In this document: piece by piece, positions 1-56,737 of the stretch | Numbering within the stretch: position 1 is the stretch's first letter | How the letters are laid out: the number at the start of each line of letters is the position of its first letter | Origin: a virus | Strand: one strand, 5' to 3' | DNA length: 64,000 nt | IMG/VR virus record: IMGVR_UViG_3300028394_000076 | Span: 1 to 64,000 of that record | Position numbers and translations under genes: made by a program | The notes under the pieces: generated by a model | Told to the model about the DNA's origin: nothing | The model's database searches: none | Seen by the model: only the letters and a program-made list of their open reading frames with translations

Positions 1-1374
1 GAAACACAGATATTATCTGCAATGTGTTTTGTGGTGTCAGGAATAGTAAAAGATCAATTGGTTTATATTAATAGTCCAAGTATTGGACTTAAAAATGGAA
101 GACCACATTATTTTTTACAATATGGTATACAAGAATTAGGTTATGTTTTTTGGAATGAAGCAACTCAAGAATGGTATTTTTGTCAAACTATAGAATGTCA
201 AACATCTCCCTACAATATATTAGGTTATGATGAATTTTACCCGACAGGAACTACTGGTAATTGGGTTATTGCCTCAGACACTGAAATTTTAATTCAAGAG
301 TCATATATTGGACCATGTCAGATACCTGTTATTCCAAAAAGTAGTTACGATTTATGTGTTAGTTTAGAGGTTATTGATTATAGTTTAGAAATACCGGCAA
401 TTTCTGTTGTTCAGATAGATTTACAACCCGGATTAATAATAAATGGAGAAGAAAGTTGGACTTCATCAACTAGTCAATACCTTTTATATTGGAATACAGG
501 GTCAACACCATCACAATGGACTTTAACGGGATACTCCCCAACAACAATTTTTATAAATAATGACCCATCTTATCCGCCTTTAAGTAATTGGCAGATTTTA
601 GGTCCTCCTAGTGTTGTATCTATTACAGTTATAGAAGGTAGTTGTGTTTCATCATATTTAGTAAGTGTTGGAGCTAGTGATAATGATGCTGTTTGTGGTG
701 GTTTTGGAAGTATATCGGTTACTGCCGCTGGTGGAACACCTCCATACACATTTTCTGTTGACGGAGGTTTATCTTATCAACCATCTCCTATGTTTAATAA
801 TCTTTTACCGGGAATATATTCTGTAACCGCTAAAGATTCTAACAGTATAGTTGGAAATTTTGGAAACGTAACAATTACCAATACTCCCCCAACAACATAC
901 ACATTAACATTGATTGTTAATTACGTAAACAACACATTTTCTATTACCGCACCAACATTACCAGGAGGAGTTACTTTTACTGTTAATTTAGTAATGATTT
1001 CAACTTTATCGTATTACCCAATACCATTAAACCCTAGCCCAAGTTATAATAACACAACCACAATTGATGGGTCGTACACTATGAATTTCATTAGTATAAC
1101 AACAAACACAATCCCACTTACAGGTCCTTGTACCGCCGACGGAGCTATAAATATAATACAATATCAAAGAACATACGAAAGATCGATAACCTTAGTTAGT
1201 AATCAAACTGTTACAGGATCAACAACTAATTTTATTATTAATCAACCAAGTGGTAATTGCGAAGACGCAATTGCATATTATACCATAAATATGGATAACC
1301 CAATCGTAAATGGATGTTCGTGTTGTGAGTTAATATTAATAAACCCAGTGACACCAAAACCACCAAGTTTTTAA
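1..1374 (+). CDS. Virion surface or adhesin-like protein with SprB-type repeat (5' partial)
   Basis: The frame is open from the first base of the window, so the true start lies upstream; the first Met is at 22. The visible 457 residues are rich in Ser, Thr, Asn, Gly and aromatics, typical of beta-rich tail or fibre proteins. A segment coded at about 690-880 (GTPPYTFSVDGG, then LLPGIYSVTAKDSN) matches the pattern of SprB repeats, which occur in gliding adhesins of Flavobacterium and relatives. C-terminal cysteines (CSCCE) precede a Pro-rich end. It sits 33 bp before another putative virion protein. A host-derived binding domain in a phage fibre is an inference. Confidence 0.6.
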   Translation, partial: ETQILSAMCFVVSGIVKDQLVYINSPSIGLKNGRPHYFLQYGIQELGYVFWNEATQEWYFCQTIECQTSPYNILGYDEFYPTGTTGNWVIASDTEILIQESYIGPCQIPVIPKSSYDLCVSLEVIDYSLEIPAISVVQIDLQPGLIINGEESWTSSTSQYLLYWNTGSTPSQWTLTGYSPTTIFINNDPSYPPLSNWQILGPPSVVSITVIEGSCVSSYLVSVGASDNDAVCGGFGSISVTAAGGTPPYTFSVDGGLSYQPSPMFNNLLPGIYSVTAKDSNSIVGNFGNVTITNTPPTTYTLTLIVNYVNNTFSITAPTLPGGVTFTVNLVMISTLSYYPIPLNPSPSYNNTTTIDGSYTMNFISITTNTIPLTGPCTADGAINIIQYQRTYERSITLVSNQTVTGSTTNFIINQPSGNCEDAIAYYTINMDNPIVNGCSCCELILINPVTPKPPSF

Positions 1375-1394
1375 ACATAAAAAACAATTTATAA

Positions 1395-1403
1395 TATTTA
1401 TTA
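1395..1403 (+). promoter_or_regulatory. TATTTATTA start-site box
   Basis: TATTTATTA ends 4 nt before the ATG at 1408. The same 9-mer or a one-base variant precedes about 20 genes in this window, mostly structural ones. It is probably the phage late promoter. Confidence 0.55.
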
Positions 1404-1407
1404 TTAA

Positions 1408-3930
1408 ATGGCATACATAATTAAAAATACTTCAGGTTTAGTTAACACACGAGTTACCGATACTGGTAGACAAAAATTGTCTGAGGGTAATTTTAATATT
1501 TCTTATTTTGCAATAGGGGATAGTGAAATTTCATACAACACATTACCACAAACATACAATCAATCTGATACGGTAATTTTAGAGCCACAATTTAATTCAC
1601 AAAATAACTCAGGGGTACCGGAATCAAATAGACAATATCTTAAATATCCTTATTTGGTGGATCAACAACAAACAAACATATATGGTATACCATTTATGGA
1701 TTCACAAGTAGAATCAGTTTTTAACCGAGCTGCCATGAGAGGTTTTTTTACTGGAAATACAAGCGCTACTACCGTAAATTGGAAAGTTTTAACGAATAAT
1801 CAATACGTATCAACACCAAACTATGTTGTGGATATGTATTCTTTAAGTGGTTCTAACGAAATTAATGTTTATAGAATTGATTGTAATCCATTAAATAATA
1901 CAACACCACAAATTGGAGATTTTATTACAATATATTATGATGGATTGGCCAAAAATGATTGTAATTGTGTTGGATTCCCAACCCCTACACCAACACCGAC
2001 ATCAGAGTTAACATCAACCCCTACGCCAACACCATCAGTAACACTATCGGATATTTGTGCATCATCAACACCAACACCAACACCAACAAGAACCCCTTGT
2101 TTAACCCCATCGCCAACTGCTGTTTGTCCTTTACCGGAACCACCAAGTTGTGAAAAAATGATGTTTAGTTGTTACCCAACACTTACATATAGAATTATAA
2201 ATGTTTGTCAAGATAAACTTACATTAGATAGACCAACACCTGATTATACAAATTTTTCAGTTGAGTGTATTGCAAGAGCATTAATTTATCCTCCAAAAAT
2301 GACACCACTTTATGATAGTTTTACCCCTGAACCTCATTGGAGTAAAAGTGTTATTGATTTTGAATCAGTTTGTGATACAGATCAATTTGATGTTAAAATT
2401 TGGAACATGAATATTCCTTGGACTGAAAATCCGGCCGGACTTATTTCAACAATATATGATGATTACACGAAATTTGGGTCAATTGCTTATATTGGGCAAA
2501 AAGAATATTTAGGGTATACCACAAGCGCTCAAACATCAACAGATGATGTTTATTATTATAATTCTTTTGGAGATAAAAAAGTTGTCACACCAAAAGAACA
2601 AAAAGCAATTGCCATTATTCATTATACTAATCAAACAATTGATTTCTTTTATGGTGAAAAATTCGCAATGCAACCTTACGATAGTCAAAATCCTGAAAAC
2701 ACACAAGGACAAGCAAGAAATTTTAAATTATATATACCAACTTTAATGTGGCATAAAAACACCGAATGTTGTTTTGGTCAAACATTCTATGTTGACCCAC
2801 CTAATTTTGATGGTAAAAATCTATTCCAAGTTCAATATACTAAATCGAATGTATCGTCAAACATGAATCAACCTGGTTTAAGATACTTTAACTTGTGGGA
2901 CACATTTGCACAATCAAATGGCTTACCAAGTAGAATTGGAAAAGTATATCCTGATTCTCAAATGATAGTTATTGATGATGAAGAAGTTGTTGCGGCTCTT
3001 TCATATAAATCAAATAGGAATTGGACATTACCGGCACCACAAATTTCTTTAATTACTCCAAACACTTGTGGGACCTCAAATACAACCGGGGTTTTAACTG
3101 GTGGTTCAGAAACACTTTGGATAACATATAGATTATCAAATAATTATGATTTTACAAATTCACTACATTGCAATTATTACAGTAGTTTAGTTGGAACCGA
3201 AAATGTTTGCACACCGGACACACCACAAAATGTTGCGGTTAGATTTGGCGGAGAATTTTATTGCTTGGTTCAACCAGGATACTCCCCAACAACAACTACA
3301 ACAACTTATAGTCCTGTTACAACAACTACAACAAACTATAGTCCGTTAACAACAACGACAACTAATAATCCTGTTACAACAACAACAACACATTGTCCAA
3401 CTTGTATTGTTCCAACAGGTTTTTACGCCACACAATTTGAAGTGTTGGCACAAAAGACGTTAAATGGCGTGAGACCTAACCCAACACAATGGAAACTTAT
3501 AGATTTTACAGACCAAATAAGTGGTATGTTTGTCAATGGATATGTGACACAAGAATCGTTAACGGCAACAACTTTTGTTATTACTTCAGAAAATTATTCG
3601 TCAGCCCCATATTATAATTTAAATAATTATATTGACTTAGTTCCTTTAAACACCACAACTCCAAAGTTAAATTTTGGTGATGAGTATTATTTTTACGGTA
3701 GTTTAGAAACTGATATTCAAGCAACAATTTATGAAATGAAATATAAAATAAATTTAAGCTCAACCGAGTTTTTAGTTTCTCAAAACCCAACATGGACTTT
3801 TGGAACAAAATCTTATGTTTCTGAAATTGCATTATTAGACGAAAATAAAGATATTTTGGTTATGTCAAAATTACAATCACCGGTTCTTAGACAAGGAATA
3901 CAACAATATGTCGTAAAACTTGATTTGTAA
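1408..3930 (+). CDS. Large virion structural protein with Pro-Thr stalks (tail fibre or baseplate type)
   Basis: This is an 840-residue protein. The N-terminus (NTRVTDTGRQKLSEG, FAIGDSEIS) looks like a conserved baseplate or tail attachment region. It is followed by a Thr-Pro stalk at about residues 190-235, a large globular middle, a second stalk of Thr runs spaced by YSP or NP at about residues 628-668, and a C-terminal domain. Alternating stalks and globules suggest an extended fibre. A TATTTATTA box lies just upstream of the ATG, as at other probable late genes here. The exact tail position cannot be told from sequence alone. Confidence 0.6.
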   Translation: MAYIIKNTSGLVNTRVTDTGRQKLSEGNFNISYFAIGDSEISYNTLPQTYNQSDTVILEPQFNSQNNSGVPESNRQYLKYPYLVDQQQTNIYGIPFMDSQVESVFNRAAMRGFFTGNTSATTVNWKVLTNNQYVSTPNYVVDMYSLSGSNEINVYRIDCNPLNNTTPQIGDFITIYYDGLAKNDCNCVGFPTPTPTPTSELTSTPTPTPSVTLSDICASSTPTPTPTRTPCLTPSPTAVCPLPEPPSCEKMMFSCYPTLTYRIINVCQDKLTLDRPTPDYTNFSVECIARALIYPPKMTPLYDSFTPEPHWSKSVIDFESVCDTDQFDVKIWNMNIPWTENPAGLISTIYDDYTKFGSIAYIGQKEYLGYTTSAQTSTDDVYYYNSFGDKKVVTPKEQKAIAIIHYTNQTIDFFYGEKFAMQPYDSQNPENTQGQARNFKLYIPTLMWHKNTECCFGQTFYVDPPNFDGKNLFQVQYTKSNVSSNMNQPGLRYFNLWDTFAQSNGLPSRIGKVYPDSQMIVIDDEEVVAALSYKSNRNWTLPAPQISLITPNTCGTSNTTGVLTGGSETLWITYRLSNNYDFTNSLHCNYYSSLVGTENVCTPDTPQNVAVRFGGEFYCLVQPGYSPTTTTTTYSPVTTTTTNYSPLTTTTTNNPVTTTTTHCPTCIVPTGFYATQFEVLAQKTLNGVRPNPTQWKLIDFTDQISGMFVNGYVTQESLTATTFVITSENYSSAPYYNLNNYIDLVPLNTTTPKLNFGDEYYFYGSLETDIQATIYEMKYKINLSSTEFLVSQNPTWTFGTKSYVSEIALLDENKDILVMSKLQSPVLRQGIQQYVVKLDL
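1975..2135 (+). repeat. Thr-Pro coding low-complexity stalk
   Basis: Imperfect 6-nt repeats (ACACCA-like) encode alternating Thr-Pro in the structural protein at 1408-3930. The same type of stalk is coded on the opposite strand at 4615-5886. Confidence 0.75.
3285..3395 (+). repeat. Poly-Thr repeat with YSP spacers
   Basis: Four imperfect units of about 11 codons encode Thr runs separated by YSPT, YSPV, NYSPL and NNPV. They form a second stalk in the protein at 1408-3930. Confidence 0.7.
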
Positions 3931-3964
3931 GATAAACTACATTTTTTTTTATAATGCCTTATAA

Positions 3965-3973
3965 TATTTAAAT
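3965..3973 (+). promoter_or_regulatory. Degenerate TATTTAAAT start-site box
   Basis: TATTTAAAT lies 12 nt before the ATG at 3986 and is a weaker match to the TATTTATnA box. Confidence 0.3.
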
Positions 3974-3985
3974 ACCATTAAATTT

Positions 3986-4591
3986 ATGAATAAAAATTTA
4001 AAAAACTCACCCAAAGTATTGGGATTAGACATCTCAACAAAAACGATTGGTTGGGCTTTATTTGACATTCAAACTAAAGAACTTTTAGAACTTACTCACA
4101 TATCTCCAAGACCTAAGTTAGATAATGACAAAGACAAATTAAAAGAATTATTAGTAAAATCTGAAATTTTTGCCGAAAAATTAAAAGAATATAAAAATCT
4201 TGGAATTGTTAGAATCGTAATAGAAGAGCCCCTTTTAAATTCAAATAATGTTTATACGGTTCAAACCCTATTAAGATTCAATAGTTTTGTTTTTAAAGAA
4301 ATATATAATATTTTAGGTATAGTTCCTGAATTCATATCTACGTATAATTCAAGAAAATATGCATTTCCTGATCTAATTAAGGAAAATGATAAAAATAAAT
4401 TTGTTTTATTTGGAGGATTACCAAAAAATATTGATAAAAAAATGATAATCTGGGAAAAAGTTGCTAAACTTGAACCACAAATAAAATGGTTATATACAAA
4501 AAATAATACCCTAAGAAAAGAAAATTTTGATCAAACAGATGCCTATACATGTGTATTGGGTCTTATGAGATTAAAAGAAATTTGGGTATAA
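3986..4591 (+). CDS. RuvC-like RNase H-fold nuclease (putative Holliday junction resolvase)
   Basis: This 201-residue protein keeps the acidic signature of the RuvC/RNase H fold. The first strand is VLGLDISTKTIGWAL with D15. The second acidic strand is IVIEEPLL (E80/E81). The C-terminal helix is DQTDAYTCVLG with D182 and D185. Members of this family resolve branched DNA during phage recombination and packaging, and that is the likely role here. It sits between virion genes rather than beside gp46/gp47. A different RNase H-fold nuclease activity is possible. The fold call is firm; the exact substrate is inferred. Confidence 0.75.
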   Translation: MNKNLKNSPKVLGLDISTKTIGWALFDIQTKELLELTHISPRPKLDNDKDKLKELLVKSEIFAEKLKEYKNLGIVRIVIEEPLLNSNNVYTVQTLLRFNSFVFKEIYNILGIVPEFISTYNSRKYAFPDLIKENDKNKFVLFGGLPKNIDKKMIIWEKVAKLEPQIKWLYTKNNTLRKENFDQTDAYTCVLGLMRLKEIWV

Positions 4592-22298: not shown

Positions 22299-23909
22299 AT
22301 GAATAAAGAGCAATATATCAGATCAAGATTTAAAGATTTACTTAACGAAACTTTAGAGGAAAGGGCGAATGACATTAAAATGAATCTTTCTAAAAAAGTT
22401 AGGCTTAACCCCAAAAATGAATTTGATTACATAGAAGAAGGTAAAGGTATGTGTGAATCGTGTGGTGGAATGATGTCGGAAGGTAAATGTAATGAGGGGT
22501 GTAATCTAGAAGAAAATAAAAGTATGTGTGAATCATGTGGTGGAATGGTGAATGAAGGTGAGGCATGTGAAGAATGTGGAAGTATGTACAAGGGAGACAT
22601 TAGAGAACTTGGTGGTATGGATGACGGACACCCAAGATTTGGAAAAGAAAATTTTAACCAAATGACTAAATCTGAAGTTGAAAGACTTCTTAGAGGTGAT
22701 TACGATGACTATGAGGATGACGATGAGGATGACGATGATGATGACGATGAAATGGGATTTGAAACTCCTGTGAGAGATGCGATCAGATCTCATAAAGGTA
22801 GATTTAAAACTCCTGTGAGAGATGCAATTAGATCTCATAAAGGTAAATTTGAAACACCAATGAGGGATGCAATCAGATCTCGTGGAAATAGATCTAGAGA
22901 TCTTGAAGATGACATGAGCGAAGGTGTTAATTTTGAAATAGATGAAAAACTATATGGTAATCAAAGTAGAATAGACAAAAACAAGAACAACAGAATTGAT
23001 AGTGAAGATTTCAAAATGTTAAGAAAACAACAAGATGAAGAACAACTTTATGAAATTGATTTTGAAAAAGAAGAAAAGACCGAAGGTAATGCTTTCACAG
23101 GAGCTTTGTCTAACGCTAAAAAACACAACAAAGATGACTTTGAAGTTGACGGTAAAAAATTTAAGGTTAAAGAATCAATACTATATACTGAATCTGATTT
23201 ACTTGATCTTATTGAAAATTTAGTGATTGAAGAAAAGAATACATTTAAGAAATCAGAACCAAAAGGATACAAAGAATATGAAAGAGTGCATAATGCAGAT
23301 AAAAAAGAAAATGATAATTATCTAAAAAGCGTTGCTAAAAAAATGACTGATTATTTAAAAGGATCGTCAGATTCAGGATCTAAGTATGAAATGAAAGAAA
23401 CCAAAAAATTTCCAACTGAAAATGGTGGAATGAAAAAAGGAATTAGAAAAAAATATACACCATCAGACGCTGTTGATGAATATATTGAATCTTTTTCTTA
23501 TCCAGGACAAACTAACTTGGTTTATGATGAAATCAAACCTAATGATGAAAAAATTAAAGGTCAATTAGTTGGAAGTAGTACTAATGGAAACGCACAAGTT
23601 GATAAAGACGGCAAGGCTTTAGGTAATGTTGTACCAAGTGAAGTAGGTGAGAGATTCTATAAGAACTTCAAAGATAACTTATATGGTCAAGAACAGATGA
23701 ATGCTTCTTATAAGAGACAACCACAACCTATTGATCAAGCTGGTGAAGAAACTGAAAGAGGAACACTTAAGTCTAAAAAAGGTAAAAAAACATCTCAAAG
23801 TATTTTAAACAAGTTGGAAGAAAGTAAAAACATTAAACAGGAAAATAAATTAAATGAAGAGTTTGGTAGAATGCAAGAGTTAATGGGATATAGTAGAAAA
23901 ACCCAATAA
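22299..23909 (+). CDS. Large multidomain acidic virion-type protein with zinc knuckles and EF-hand-like loop
   Basis: This 536-residue protein has a leader-like amphipathic N-terminus (YIRSRFKDLLNETLEE). It then has three CxxC-type knuckles (MCESCGGM twice, ACEECGSM), a poly-Asp stretch, three tandem 15-residue repeats (FETPVRDAIRSHKGR type), and an EF-hand-like calcium loop, DKNKNNRIDSEDF. The C-terminus ends with LNEEFGRMQELMGY, echoing the leader motifs of other genes here. The mix of acidic and metal-binding parts suggests a scaffold or internal head protein. No enzymatic domain is seen. Confidence 0.5.
   Translation: MNKEQYIRSRFKDLLNETLEERANDIKMNLSKKVRLNPKNEFDYIEEGKGMCESCGGMMSEGKCNEGCNLEENKSMCESCGGMVNEGEACEECGSMYKGDIRELGGMDDGHPRFGKENFNQMTKSEVERLLRGDYDDYEDDDEDDDDDDDEMGFETPVRDAIRSHKGRFKTPVRDAIRSHKGKFETPMRDAIRSRGNRSRDLEDDMSEGVNFEIDEKLYGNQSRIDKNKNNRIDSEDFKMLRKQQDEEQLYEIDFEKEEKTEGNAFTGALSNAKKHNKDDFEVDGKKFKVKESILYTESDLLDLIENLVIEEKNTFKKSEPKGYKEYERVHNADKKENDNYLKSVAKKMTDYLKGSSDSGSKYEMKETKKFPTENGGMKKGIRKKYTPSDAVDEYIESFSYPGQTNLVYDEIKPNDEKIKGQLVGSSTNGNAQVDKDGKALGNVVPSEVGERFYKNFKDNLYGQEQMNASYKRQPQPIDQAGEETERGTLKSKKGKKTSQSILNKLEESKNIKQENKLNEEFGRMQELMGYSRKTQ
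22758..22892 (+). repeat. Three tandem 45-bp coding repeats
   Basis: Units at 22758-22802, 22803-22847 and 22848-22892 encode FxTPxRDAIRSxxxx. The third unit is the most diverged. Confidence 0.9.
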
Positions 23910-52248: not shown

Positions 52249-52392
52249 TAATCTAAAATCATAGTTTGCTCAATACGTAAATTTAATGACCACTAATTCC
52301 AATTATATTCGTATTTATTGGTGAACTCAACCTGCCCGTGGAATATGGGGGTTTCCTAAAAAGATTCTTCAAGAGAGTAAATAATTTTATTT

Positions 52393-52401
52393 TATTTATT
52401 T
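52393..52401 (+). promoter_or_regulatory. TATTTATTT start-site box
   Basis: TATTTATTT ends 5 nt before ATG 52407, the start used for the secreted protein. Confidence 0.4.
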
Positions 52402-52406
52402 TTACT

Positions 52407-55154
52407 ATGAAGAATATATTAATTGGATTTTTTGTTTTATTTTCATCTTTCTTATTTTCTCAATCATGTACACACACTATTAAACGAACAGATACCTTTG
52501 GTGATGGGTGGAATGGAGGAACAGTCGCAGTTTCCGTTAACGGAGTAACCGTTTTATCTAATTTAAGTTGTGTTGGATTAGGTCCTACTAATTCTACATT
52601 TACTGCATCTGTTGGGTCAACCATTAGAGTATACCGAACACTCGCAGGGTCTTACCCTTCCGAAATGCGTATACAGGTTCTTAATGGTGCTGGGTCTATA
52701 ATAATCAATACTATTCAACCGGTTGCCGGAACAGCAACTACGGGAGGACAAACAGTGTTAGGTAGTTGTGCCGCAGTTGCTGCCGGTCCATGTACTAATA
52801 CTTCATCATATGGGTCGGCAACTGCACCATCAACACCAACAACTGTAACCATTAGTACTTGTCAATATCAAACTGAATATAATACAATTTATTCTTGTAT
52901 TGCAGGACAAACATATCAATCATATTACAATTTAGGTGGATACATAACGGTTAGGTCGGGAACATATAATGGTACTGTAGTAACTAGTGGAAACTCTCCA
53001 CTAAATTGGGTTTGTCCGTCCTCAGGAACATATTTTGTTCATTACAACACAAATAATACTTGTGGTACCGCTATGGGTTGTGGAACATCATCCATTTCTT
53101 GTCTAACTTGTTTGGCACCACCCCCACCATCCAACGATTTAGTATGTAACTCAACTCCAATTACTTGTGGTCAAACACTATCAGGAACCACCGTAAATGC
53201 AACTAACTCTGGAACGGGTGAAAATGGTTTATGTTCTGTTAGTCAAACACAACCCGGTGTTTGGTATGTTATTTCAGGAAACGGACAAATTATGACCGCA
53301 AATCTTTGTGCTACAGCATGGGATAGTAAAATGTCTGTATTTAGTGGTCCTAATTGCTCAACATTATCATGTGTTGGAGGTAATGATGATTTTGGGCCCG
53401 CTTGTTCTAGTTCATCAGCCTCATTTTCATGGACTTCGTCAATTGGAACAAATTACTATATATTAGTTCATGGGTATAGCGCAAGTAGTAGTTTTTCTAT
53501 TGGTCTAACTTGTATATCTCCCCCGCCAGCAGACCCAACATCAATATCTGCGACACAAAATACTATTTGTAATGGATCATCTACCACTCTAACCGCAAAT
53601 GGTGCTGTGGGTGTGGTTTATTGGTATATAGGAGGTTGTGCCTCCACTTTCGTGTCAACTGGAAATTCCATCTCGGTAAGTCCTGCGTCAACCACTACAT
53701 ACTATGCGAGAAATCTAAACGGAGGTCTTTTTAGTAGTGGGTGCGCTTCAACAACAATAACAGTTAACCCTAATCCCACTGTAACTATAAGTGCGGCAAC
53801 CAATACAATATGTAACGGATCAAATACCCAATTGATATCTAACATTAGTGGAGTGTCATCACCAGGAAATCTTGTTGTAACCATCTCCACCAGTGGATTC
53901 TTAGACGAAAGTTCTTGGACTTTAACAAATAGTTTAGGGACTGTAATTGGTTCAGGTGGACCTTATGGTTTAGGGTCAACAAATATAATTCCAATCGGTT
54001 CATCGGCAAATGACCCATATACATTTAATGTGGAAACTCAAGGAATATGGAATGACAACACGGCAAATTATTTGGTAACTTGTAACGGAACAACGGTCCT
54101 AAGTGGAAGTTTAGTTGGTGGACAGAGCATAACACAATCAATATCATCTTGTGGGTCTTCTCCCGGTGTAACATATCTATGGACACCTTCAAACGGACTT
54201 ACAAATGCAAGTGCTCCAAGTCCATTTGCTTCTCCTACGACTACACAGACCTATCAATTAACCGCAACGGCAAATGGATGTTCGGCATCAACTTCAACAA
54301 CAATAACCGTAAATCCTTCTGTTGGTTTTGTGTCTACAATATCTGGTAATAATACCATAATTGCCGGAACCCAAGAAAGTTATTCAATAACACCGGTAGC
54401 AAACTCAAATTACCAATGGGCATACACCGAGTCCGTAACTGCACCACTATGGATAAACGTTCCGAATTCTAACTCTCCATCAATTACATTTACTTGGCCA
54501 CAGACAACAACTAATGGTTCGGCTAGAGTTATTATCAGTAATGCTTATGGGTGTGGGACTCAAACCAGATTTTTTAATATTGTCACTAATGGTGCTCTTC
54601 CTGTCGAACTATTAAGTTTTGTTGGAGTGTGTGATAATAATTTAATATCATTAACTTGGAAAACGGCAAGTGAACATAATTCTGATTATTTTGAAGTTCT
54701 TAAATCAAGAGATGGTATTAATTGGTCAATATTAGCCACTTTAAATTCGGCTGGTAATTCTACAGAAGAATTAACTTATACCACAAAAGATGAAAACGCA
54801 ATTGACGGGAATAACTATTATAAACTTCTTCAATATGATATTGATGGACAATCAAAAGAGTATGGACCAATAAATGTTACGTGTAACAAAAACACAAAAG
54901 GTTACTTTTCAATATTTCCTAATCCAAGTTCAGGTTCATTTCAAGTTGTGTTAAACAATAAAAATATGGTTGGTGATGGAAAACTAATAATTAAAGACAC
55001 AAAAGGATCTGAAATACTTAATAAAGAAATTAATATTGTTTCAGGAATTAATTTATATAATATTATTGATTTAAATGTGGTGGATGGAATTTATTATGTT
55101 CAGGTAAGTAACGGAAATTTTTCAACACAAGTAATAAAACAAATAATAAAATAA
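52407..55154 (+). CDS. Secreted multi-domain protein with T9SS C-terminal sorting domain
   Basis: The start is at ATG 52407 because it opens a clean signal peptide (IGFFVLFSSFLFSQS, Cys next). The 915-residue product has an N-terminal DGWNGG-type domain, several Cys-rich beta domains, Ig-like domains (ISATQNTICNGSSTTLTANG and later copies), a LSWKTASE-like C-terminal module (LTWKTASEHNSDYFEVLKS) and a final sorting domain with FSIFPNPSSGSF and ending in YYVQVSNGNFSTQVIKQIIK. The end pattern is that of type IX secretion cargo. A phage gene with such a tag would be exported and attached to the host surface by the host T9SS. Confidence 0.8.
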   Translation: MKNILIGFFVLFSSFLFSQSCTHTIKRTDTFGDGWNGGTVAVSVNGVTVLSNLSCVGLGPTNSTFTASVGSTIRVYRTLAGSYPSEMRIQVLNGAGSIIINTIQPVAGTATTGGQTVLGSCAAVAAGPCTNTSSYGSATAPSTPTTVTISTCQYQTEYNTIYSCIAGQTYQSYYNLGGYITVRSGTYNGTVVTSGNSPLNWVCPSSGTYFVHYNTNNTCGTAMGCGTSSISCLTCLAPPPPSNDLVCNSTPITCGQTLSGTTVNATNSGTGENGLCSVSQTQPGVWYVISGNGQIMTANLCATAWDSKMSVFSGPNCSTLSCVGGNDDFGPACSSSSASFSWTSSIGTNYYILVHGYSASSSFSIGLTCISPPPADPTSISATQNTICNGSSTTLTANGAVGVVYWYIGGCASTFVSTGNSISVSPASTTTYYARNLNGGLFSSGCASTTITVNPNPTVTISAATNTICNGSNTQLISNISGVSSPGNLVVTISTSGFLDESSWTLTNSLGTVIGSGGPYGLGSTNIIPIGSSANDPYTFNVETQGIWNDNTANYLVTCNGTTVLSGSLVGGQSITQSISSCGSSPGVTYLWTPSNGLTNASAPSPFASPTTTQTYQLTATANGCSASTSTTITVNPSVGFVSTISGNNTIIAGTQESYSITPVANSNYQWAYTESVTAPLWINVPNSNSPSITFTWPQTTTNGSARVIISNAYGCGTQTRFFNIVTNGALPVELLSFVGVCDNNLISLTWKTASEHNSDYFEVLKSRDGINWSILATLNSAGNSTEELTYTTKDENAIDGNNYYKLLQYDIDGQSKEYGPINVTCNKNTKGYFSIFPNPSSGSFQVVLNNKNMVGDGKLIIKDTKGSEILNKEINIVSGINLYNIIDLNVVDGIYYVQVSNGNFSTQVIKQIIK

Positions 55155-55610: not shown

Positions 55611-55832
55611 ATGAAAGAAAGAGAAGTAATTTACGGAGTGTGTGATAAGATGGGTTCATGTGATTCTTATTTTGGTTTTTTTAAAACAGAAAAAGATGCT
55701 GAACACGAGGTTGAAGTTCAAGCTAATAGACTCAAGGAAGACTTGGGTATGATGGATATTGACATTCAAACGGACCGGGCATTATTCGATGGTAAATTGG
55801 TAATAGTAATTCACAGACATGTATTAAGATGA
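55611..55832 (+). CDS. Small unknown protein
   Basis: This 73-residue protein (IYGVCDKMGSCDSYFGFFKT, then ALFDGKLVIVIHRHV) appears as an alpha/beta domain. It overlaps the start of the repeat gene at 55829 by 4 nt, so the two are co-translated. The function is unknown. Confidence 0.5.
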   Translation: MKEREVIYGVCDKMGSCDSYFGFFKTEKDAEHEVEVQANRLKEDLGMMDIDIQTDRALFDGKLVIVIHRHVLR

Positions 55833-56737
55833 TAAATCCAACAGGAAAAAAATTAGAAAAAATTATCTTTAAATTGTTTGACGATGCAAGTCAAGGGGTT
55901 GATAGATATAATCACAATGGCAGTCTATGGGCTATATTCACCAATGAAATGAGATGGGTTGTTGAATACACTAAAGACCAAACTCTATGGTATAACTATA
56001 GCTTCTTTAAAGATGAGATGGAGTTAATTGGTTTGGATTGTGTTGAAGATAAAGACCTAATTAAAAAGTGGTTTGAATCAAGATTTTTGGATATGCCAAA
56101 GGTTGAAGATGCTTTTGACCCATTTTTCGATCAAGATCAATATGTTGAAGACGTTATTCAAAATGGGGTGAGACACACCGCTCCAGACGCATCAACAATC
56201 GTATATGCGGTTGAAGACACCATTCAAAATGGGGTGAAAGATATCTCTAGTGTATTATATAAGGAGTTACTCAGCGTTGAAGACACCATTCAAAATGGGG
56301 TGAAACACACCAACGCTGCATACACGCTGTCAATCTTGGATGTTGAAGACACCATTCAAAATAAGGTGAAAAACACCTACTCAGACAAAATTCCTCATGA
56401 ATATGATTGGTCTGACGAATTCACAGAAGAAATTGAAGACACCATTCAAAATGGAATAAAGGATACCAAAAGTATGTGTGGAAAACGTGGTGGTAGAGTT
56501 GGTAATACCATTCAAAATGGGGTGAAACTTACCAAAAGTACAATAATGAGTCAAGATTCTAAAATTGAAAACACCATTCAAAATGGAGTGAAAGAGACTA
56601 TTGGCACACTACGGCGTACTTGTAAGTGGGGCGTTGATGATATTATAAAAAATGGTGTAAAGGAAACTCATGATGATTGTTCAAATAACATTGCAAGAGT
56701 TGAAGGTATAGTTAGAATAGGTGAAAAATTAAATTAA
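55829..56737 (+). CDS. Protein with CRISPR-like in-frame 36-nt repeats and variable spacers
   Basis: This 302-residue protein has an N-terminal domain of about 105 residues (KKLEKIIFKLFDDASQG, LWAIFTNEMRWVVEY, TLWYNYSFFKDEMEL). The rest is eight repeats of VEDTIQNGVKxT separated by unrelated segments of 10, 10, 10, 18, 10, 10, 11 and 10 residues, then a degenerate ninth repeat. The repeat DNA is nearly identical at all codon positions while spacers share nothing. I recall VED.IQNGVK.T-like repeats in other phage proteins, but no function. Variable segments between fixed repeats could present changing surfaces. Confidence 0.65.
   Translation: MINPTGKKLEKIIFKLFDDASQGVDRYNHNGSLWAIFTNEMRWVVEYTKDQTLWYNYSFFKDEMELIGLDCVEDKDLIKKWFESRFLDMPKVEDAFDPFFDQDQYVEDVIQNGVRHTAPDASTIVYAVEDTIQNGVKDISSVLYKELLSVEDTIQNGVKHTNAAYTLSILDVEDTIQNKVKNTYSDKIPHEYDWSDEFTEEIEDTIQNGIKDTKSMCGKRGGRVGNTIQNGVKLTKSTIMSQDSKIENTIQNGVKETIGTLRRTCKWGVDDIIKNGVKETHDDCSNNIARVEGIVRIGEKLN
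56144..56737 (+). repeat. Nine 36-nt direct repeats with mainly 30-nt spacers
   Basis: Repeats start at 56144, 56210, 56276, 56342, 56432, 56498, 56564, 56633 and 56699 (last one degenerate, contains the stop). Spacer lengths are 30, 30, 30, 54, 30, 30, 33 and 30 nt. The core GACACCATTCAAAATGGGGT holds a CCATT/AATGG inverted repeat. The unit resembles CRISPR spacing, but the reading frame is open throughout and no cas genes are seen nearby. Confidence 0.85.

Follow-up and report, generated by a model that had tools for sequence, protein, structure and literature searches.

Spacers of fixed 30-nt size, copying of the repeat, a 3′ motif and growth at the 5′ end are the joint marks of type II CRISPR adaptation. 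Viruses carry mini-CRISPR arrays without cas genes, which are probably served by host adaptation modules (PMC6858448), and in the CRISPR arrays of huge phages some of the spacers target host genes (PMC7162821). In phage-carrying Campylobacter jejuni, which has a minimal type II-C system, all new spacers were host-derived during phage association (PMC4283603).

We analyzed a 64,000-nt stretch of a phage record (the window) that contains an array of CRISPR-like repeats, together with related arrays in other viral contigs. These arrays resemble the mini-CRISPR arrays (PMC6858448) and the huge-phage loci (PMC7162821) in being viral and without cas1; those arrays, however, are non-coding and have host-like repeats and leaders, whereas the phage array is protein-coding, under selection as protein, and up to 28 units long. 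In C. jejuni, the new spacers go into the array of the host, and a Cas4-like protein of the phage is implicated; here they enter a gene of the phage, and Cas4 was not found in the phage records searched. RNA anti-CRISPRs, or solitary repeat units (PMC10651486), are also phage-borne CRISPR-like repeats, but they are small non-coding RNAs, and the phage array is a protein gene of many units that has acquired its spacers. Diversity-generating retroelements (PMC6199706) likewise give phages variable protein segments by a dedicated mechanism. Their variable repeat arises from a template by adenine mutagenesis, whereas here the spacers share no template, no template repeat is mutated and each new unit brings in an entire foreign 30-mer.

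Like bacterial type II-C arrays, the phage array has 30-nt spacers, a repeat copied for each spacer, the newest spacers at one end and a 3′ motif. Unlike them, it lies inside a translated protein gene, in which bacterial chromosomal spacers are kept as peptides, and searches of phage records for Cas1 and Cas4 gave nothing. Among the features that define a CRISPR array, we observed near-identical direct repeats, unique spacers of fixed length (old units being degenerate), spacers of foreign DNA, repeat duplication, a 3′ protospacer-adjacent motif and the newest units at the leader end. Neither an associated cas1 or cas4 gene nor a host array with the same repeat was found, and the array is not non-coding. 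Because of these last points, we do not file it as a CRISPR immunity array despite its CRISPR-like growth.

An array inside one reading frame

The first-pass annotation had described a CRISPR-like repeat-spacer pattern inside one open reading frame of the window, and its coordinates, its spacer lengths (30, 30, 30, 54, 30, 30, 33 and 30 nt, in order) and its degenerate ninth repeat all proved to be right. The ATG of the gene overlaps the stop of the upstream gene (ATGA), an operon-like arrangement, and a linker joins the 88-residue N-terminal domain to the repeat units. Each unit comprises 12 conserved residues (VEDTIQNGVKxT) and a variable part of 10, 10, 10, 18, 10, 10, 11 and 10 residues, in order. 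All repeats listed below are 36 nt long.

55829..56737, + strand: array gene, a 302-aa ORF with an N-terminal domain, eight repeat units and a degenerate ninth repeat
55829..56092, + strand: conserved N-terminal domain, residues 1-88 (alignment, AlphaFold2), at the DNA position that a CRISPR leader would take
56144..56179, + strand: repeat 1 (VEDVIQNGVRHT)
56180-56209: spacer 1, APDASTIVYA, a cassette common to L010, L034 and L041
56210..56245, + strand: repeat 2 (VEDTIQNGVKDI)
56246-56275: spacer 2, SSVLYKELLS, common to L053, L062 and L010
56276..56311, + strand: repeat 3, identical to the family consensus GTTGAAGACACCATTCAAAATGGGGTGAAACACACC
56312-56341: spacer 3, NAAYTLSILD, private to the window phage, GC 0.47; no other match in IMG/VR and none in host-family genomes
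56342..56377, + strand: repeat 4
56378-56431: long spacer 4 (YSDKIPHEYDWSDEFTEE), an old cassette under purifying selection, pN/pS 0.22
56432..56467, + strand: repeat 5
56468-56497: spacer 5, KSMCGKRGGR, a cassette in approximately 10 arrays
56498..56533, + strand: repeat 6
56534-56563: spacer 6, KSTIMSQDSK, a shared cassette, pN/pS 0.23
56564..56599, + strand: repeat 7
56600-56632: spacer 7, IGTLRRTCKWG, 33 nt, a shared cassette
56633..56668, + strand: repeat 8, degenerate as DNA, protein motif conserved
56669-56698: spacer 8, HDDCSNNIAR, the 3′-end cassette of the window phage's clade
56699..56734, + strand: degenerate ninth repeat (VEGIVRIGEKLN), the C-terminus of the protein

The array protein matched no Pfam family and no convincing PHROG, and an Rfam search of the array was also empty. 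Elsewhere in the window, positions 52338-55154 encode a protein of 938 aa and of secreted type, in which an Ig-like domain (PF19081) and, below the cut-off, a type IX secretion tail domain (PF18962) were recognized. This is the design of a bacterial surface protein on a phage, and it fits a Bacteroidota host. A similar short start motif (MKIIITESQ, MGKIILTERQ, MKFIITENR) was found on many otherwise different genes of array-bearing phages, as if a shared leader peptide had been attached (window 47542 and 51001; L048, L067, L271 and L278).

Homologues were found by protein search at 19 IMG/VR loci. The 19-nt repeat core ACCATTCAAAATGGGGTGA was present in at least 119 viral stretches, with up to 14 copies apiece among the matches listed, vs. 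four isolated single places in bacteria and archaea (84,980 species, GTDB r220); thus, the pattern is not a product of chance. Further arrays were added by two profile scans with the N-terminal domain. After the removal of copies, the set held 99 arrays of at least two units, with 839 spacers, 521 clusters and 389 singletons. The architecture was the same throughout (approximately 100 arrays in IMG/VR phage contigs), with one N-terminal domain followed by 2-28 units. Most spacers were exactly 30 nt long (517/695, 74%), and the other lengths were always multiples of three. N-terminal domains were as low as approximately 43% identical across the family, and the DNA of recent repeats was nearly unchanged among them. 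The glycine codon of the repeat was GGG in 316 of 372 recent repeats, compared with 39 of approximately 250 old ones, where GGT prevailed.

The proposal that the spacers are read as protein was borne out, with 630 of the 635 distinct repeat cores of the family in one long frame. Spacer pN/pS was 0.38 over 82 clusters (cut at 25% DNA difference) and 0.42 for recent spacers. Old units had lost the DNA repeat but kept the protein motif V..[IV]..G[VI]K.T. Because the spacer peptides are under purifying selection, the array product is, as judged from sequence, a protein selected as such. The alignment of homologues that the first-pass annotation had called for gave both a common N-terminal domain and a common unit design, along with the pN/pS value above.

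The structure prediction that it had also proposed succeeded for one part of the protein. The AlphaFold2 model of the N-terminal domain was confident (pLDDT approximately 90 over residues 10-80) and consisted of a helix, four strands and two helices; it had no PDB relative at E ≤ 1e-3, Pfam and PHROGs gave nothing reliable, and its BFVD relatives were all uncharacterized proteins of uncultured phages. Five repeat units were modeled weakly (pLDDT 65 in the best of five models), with one β-hairpin per unit around the NG turn, and these models gave no reliable fold match. We take the units to be a β-hairpin scaffold that may present random 10-residue segments, as the models suggest.

Several phages had at least two array genes, some of them adjacent (L018, at 1204-4580; L041, L063, L088, L092 and L108; also L042). 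One spacer was present in both arrays of the L041 record, which indicates that units also move within a genome. No conserved integrase was found in the neighborhood of the arrays, and the frequent neighbors were unknown small proteins and an I-TevI-like GIY-YIG endonuclease. The endonuclease was located approximately 1 kb from the array in 14 loci (L104:4195-4947 and 13 others), and it could aid array recombination.

Recent spacers are pieces of bacterial chromosome

Composition was analyzed in 182 recent singleton spacers, using the purine share at codon position 1 (R1). Recent spacers showed no codon phase: R1 was 0.535 ± 0.012, vs. 0.545 in random-frame and 0.648 in in-frame phage DNA. Their CpG odds were foreign (1.07 vs. 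0.68 in the phages), and an EM procedure on codon models agreed with this result. Old spacers were in coding phase and phage-like in composition.

In a set of 395 Bacteroidota genomes, three spacers had matches that spanned their 30 nt and no more; for one of them the match lay in rpoB, one frame off, in four genomes. When 198 recent spacers were compared with 200 genomes of a single Bacteroidota family, that of the matched genome G086, matches were found at 67 places in 51 genomes (E ≤ 3e-4), and seven distinct spacers matched at 30 of 30 positions. The same search with 68 of these spacers reversed gave matches in 0 of 200 genomes, as did approximately 80 old spacers. Because the wide searches scored two candidates per genome, the number of matched spacers is a lower bound; when all candidates were scored in 14 genomes, matches were found in every genome, with seven in one of them.

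We read out 36 distinct protospacers, with identities of 27-30 of 30 along the spacer length, and one more (L379). Nearly all came from one Bacteroidota family and lay within ordinary chromosomal genes; of the 36, 17 were in sense (6, 3 and 8 in the three frames) and 19 in antisense orientation (4, 8 and 7). From the translated ORFs, we take these genes to include rpoB (two sites), ftsH, leuS, dnaG, aroE, pyruvate kinase, lysS, ung, thioredoxin reductase and a PBP1A. Recent spacers are thus pieces of bacterial chromosome, taken from either strand and in any frame, and the spacer matches themselves suggest that the matched family contains the hosts of these phages. They also tie many uncultured phages to a host family by means of short sequence tags.

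The search of spacers against bacterial genomes, likewise proposed in the first pass, therefore succeeded for recent spacers of the family; the tested spacers of the window itself had no match in 240 genomes of the host family. Sister arrays that share the window's cassettes did match (L053 unit 1 at 30/30; L075 units 1, 2 and 5), and by this homology the window's own spacers would be of host origin as well. Other sources were considered and rejected. An origin in the phage's own genome was not supported by searches, and the 13-nt match between spacer 56468-56497 and positions 22517-22529, which the first-pass annotation had pointed out, was at chance level, since shuffled peptides scored equally against the window. 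Regarding other phages, no match was found in 50,697 phage records, and two spacers searched elsewhere in IMG/VR gave no match outside arrays.

The 3′ flanks of the 36 protospacers shared a purine-rich motif, approximately NRRWYT, the exact form of which is approximate. Purines were present at both +2 and +3 in 24 of the 36 (null mean 9.6), and information over eight 3′ positions was 1.29 bits vs. 0.49 ± 0.14 (0/2000 randomizations). No motif was found in the 5′ flank (P = 0.12). The L379 protospacer, which was found later, fits the 3′ motif (t-A-A).

When the arrays were written as strings of spacer types, they resembled CRISPR spoligotypes, with shared 3′ ends, variable 5′ ends and deletions, as well as some reordering and one exact unit duplication (L110). 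Repeat identity to the consensus decreased from 5′ to 3′ (Spearman -0.48). Neighboring repeats were identical over 36 nt in 25 pairs with unrelated spacers (0/500 permutations as extreme), and the spacers flanking identical or near-identical neighbors differed at 57-90% of sites. In L074, units 1-4 carried four consecutive, identical and private repeat copies, each with a different singleton spacer. Neighboring units are thus not alike along their whole length, as they are in tandem-duplicated repeats. Host-matched spacers were mostly located in units 1-3 (27/36), and their mean unit was 2.8, vs. 4.1 for queried spacers and 5.4 when every unit of these arrays is counted (0/5000). The newest spacers are therefore found toward the 5′ (N-terminal) end, which is a strong tendency and not a strict rule. 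Some host-matched spacers were at units 5-7, so that either insertion is not strictly terminal or recombination moves units.

Growth and use of the array

The reading that we prefer, with a probability of roughly 0.75, is that the array gene is a translated, CRISPR-style array that turns host DNA into protein diversity. The first-pass annotation had listed a modular binding protein, a captured array and a sequence-diversifying locus as options; the last of these was supported, in combination with the other two, given the turnover of spacers and the origin of recent ones in 30-nt stretches of bacterial DNA, inserted irrespective of frame. As the family shows, the array grows by whole units, in each of which a copy of the 36-nt repeat comes with a fresh 30-nt spacer. 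The added spacers are chromosome fragments from the presumed host family; both strands and all frames are represented, and the purine-rich motif (~NRRWYT) follows the source sites on their 3′ side. Because 36 + 30 = 66 nt, or 22 codons, the frame is kept at each gain if the spacer is free of stops. A captured spacer is then read as approximately 10 new residues and kept by purifying selection; with age it comes to resemble phage coding sequence, and as a cassette it passes from phage to phage. The function is probably exerted by the protein, whose units may display random peptides in an ever-changing selection and might serve, for instance, as a multivalent binder or as a decoy of host or defense proteins.

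The insertion machine is probably a CRISPR adaptation complex that belongs to the host and works on host DNA while the phage infects, most likely one of type II-C, with Cas1-Cas2 and with Cas9 choosing the motif. Cas1 was not found in 31 phage records and Cas4 was not found in 27, some of them longer than 200 kb and possibly fragments. In the host family, Cas1 was present in 31 of 120 genomes, and most of the Cas1 loci read had arrays with GTTG-type repeats, mostly 46-58 nt long, and 30-nt spacers. The phage repeat differs in sequence from these host repeats, but its first 22 nt agree with them in register (P = 0.0002 by shuffling), with identity at positions 1-4 (GTTG) and 14-21 (TTCAAAAT); one host array (L366) also has 36-nt repeats. 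We rejected the idea that the repeat was borrowed from a bacterial CRISPR array, as it was not found in arrays of 200 host-family genomes or of 84,980 species. A likeness to Cas13b repeats was considered and dropped; the likeness tested was that to the host-family II-C-like repeats. Because no host array with the phage repeat was found, the host II-C machinery is a best guess rather than a result. We give even odds to the more specific proposal that the phage uses CRISPR adaptation for protein evolution, such that host Cas1-Cas2(-Cas9) writes random fragments of host DNA into the gene, the repeat acts as both integration site and β-hairpin scaffold, and selection keeps useful peptides, which would yield a heritable, adaptive repertoire at the protein level.

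A phage-borne CRISPR array that chiefly makes guide RNAs from host sequences, the open frame being secondary, appears unlikely. Such guides might direct host Cas9 to cleave or silence the chromosome of its own cell, or might keep Cas9 occupied to no effect. In favor of this reading, the spacer matches on the host chromosome include genes for transcription and translation; spacer length, 3′ motif and polarity are those of type II arrays; and phage arrays with host-targeting spacers and without cas1 are known (PMC7162821). A guide array needs no frame, however, and yet 630 of 635 cores are in frame. In addition, purifying selection acts on the spacer peptides, the DNA repeat decays in old units while the protein motif is kept, and a conserved protein domain forms one gene with the array. 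A double use of the array, as protein and as RNA guides, is possible, as is an unknown Cas effector in the phages.

It is very improbable that the array is an ordinary protein repeat, in which 22-aa units are tandemly duplicated, loops diverge fast and phages recombine. Shared and reordered cassettes and the exact duplication in L110 would be expected of such a gene, and old units behave accordingly. The first-pass annotation had named whole units duplicated or conserved together, with no spacer turnover, as the sign of this kind of evolution; cassettes of repeat plus spacer are indeed shared between phages and one unit was duplicated, but spacer turnover is clear. Ordinary repeat evolution cannot account for spacers that match bacterial genes at 30/30 but in another frame or on another strand, for identical neighboring repeats with unrelated spacers or for the missing coding phase of recent spacers. 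It is thus refuted as the origin of recent spacers and holds for their later shuffling.

Spurious translation of a true non-coding array, which would be open by chance because repeat plus spacer is 66 nt, is the least probable reading of all: such proteins are documented in databases as annotation errors (PMC7673337) and a 36/30 array stays in phase, but a spurious protein would be free of selection and would have cas genes nearby, whereas here the N-terminal domain is conserved across approximately 100 arrays, every spacer that is not 30 nt long still has a length divisible by three, the spacers are under purifying selection, no cas1 or cas4 was found in the phage records examined, and stops or frameshifts at neutral frequency were not seen in related arrays.

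No report of a selected protein-gene array fed with host DNA was found in the open-access literature. CRISPR adaptation is known for writing RNA guides, whereas in these phages a process that writes in a CRISPR-like way yields amino-acid sequence. Foreign DNA, in whatever frame it lands, becomes a new protein segment in a single step, and selection then acts on it. The arrays are a natural and roughly dated series of newborn peptides, with known source genes and with ages ordered along the array, in which the passage from random to functional sequence can be tested directly. The results also suggest that host immunity may be put to use by phages as a means of diversifying phage proteins.

Two further observations concern the repeats of the host family and the spacers of the phages. 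The II-C-like arrays of the host family have unusually long repeats (46-58 nt), and a few other arrays have AATTTCTACTATTGTAGAT repeats typical of type V-A (II-C-like arrays read: L352, L355, L357, L359-L366 and L368; type V-A-like: L349-L351, L369 and L370). A few phage spacers hold near-perfect palindromes, as would terminators or other hairpins from a source genome (GAAGTCGAAAATTTCGACTTCATTAAAAGC; AAAGTGGTTGAATTTGACCACTTTAAAACG, L108+7278 unit 8).
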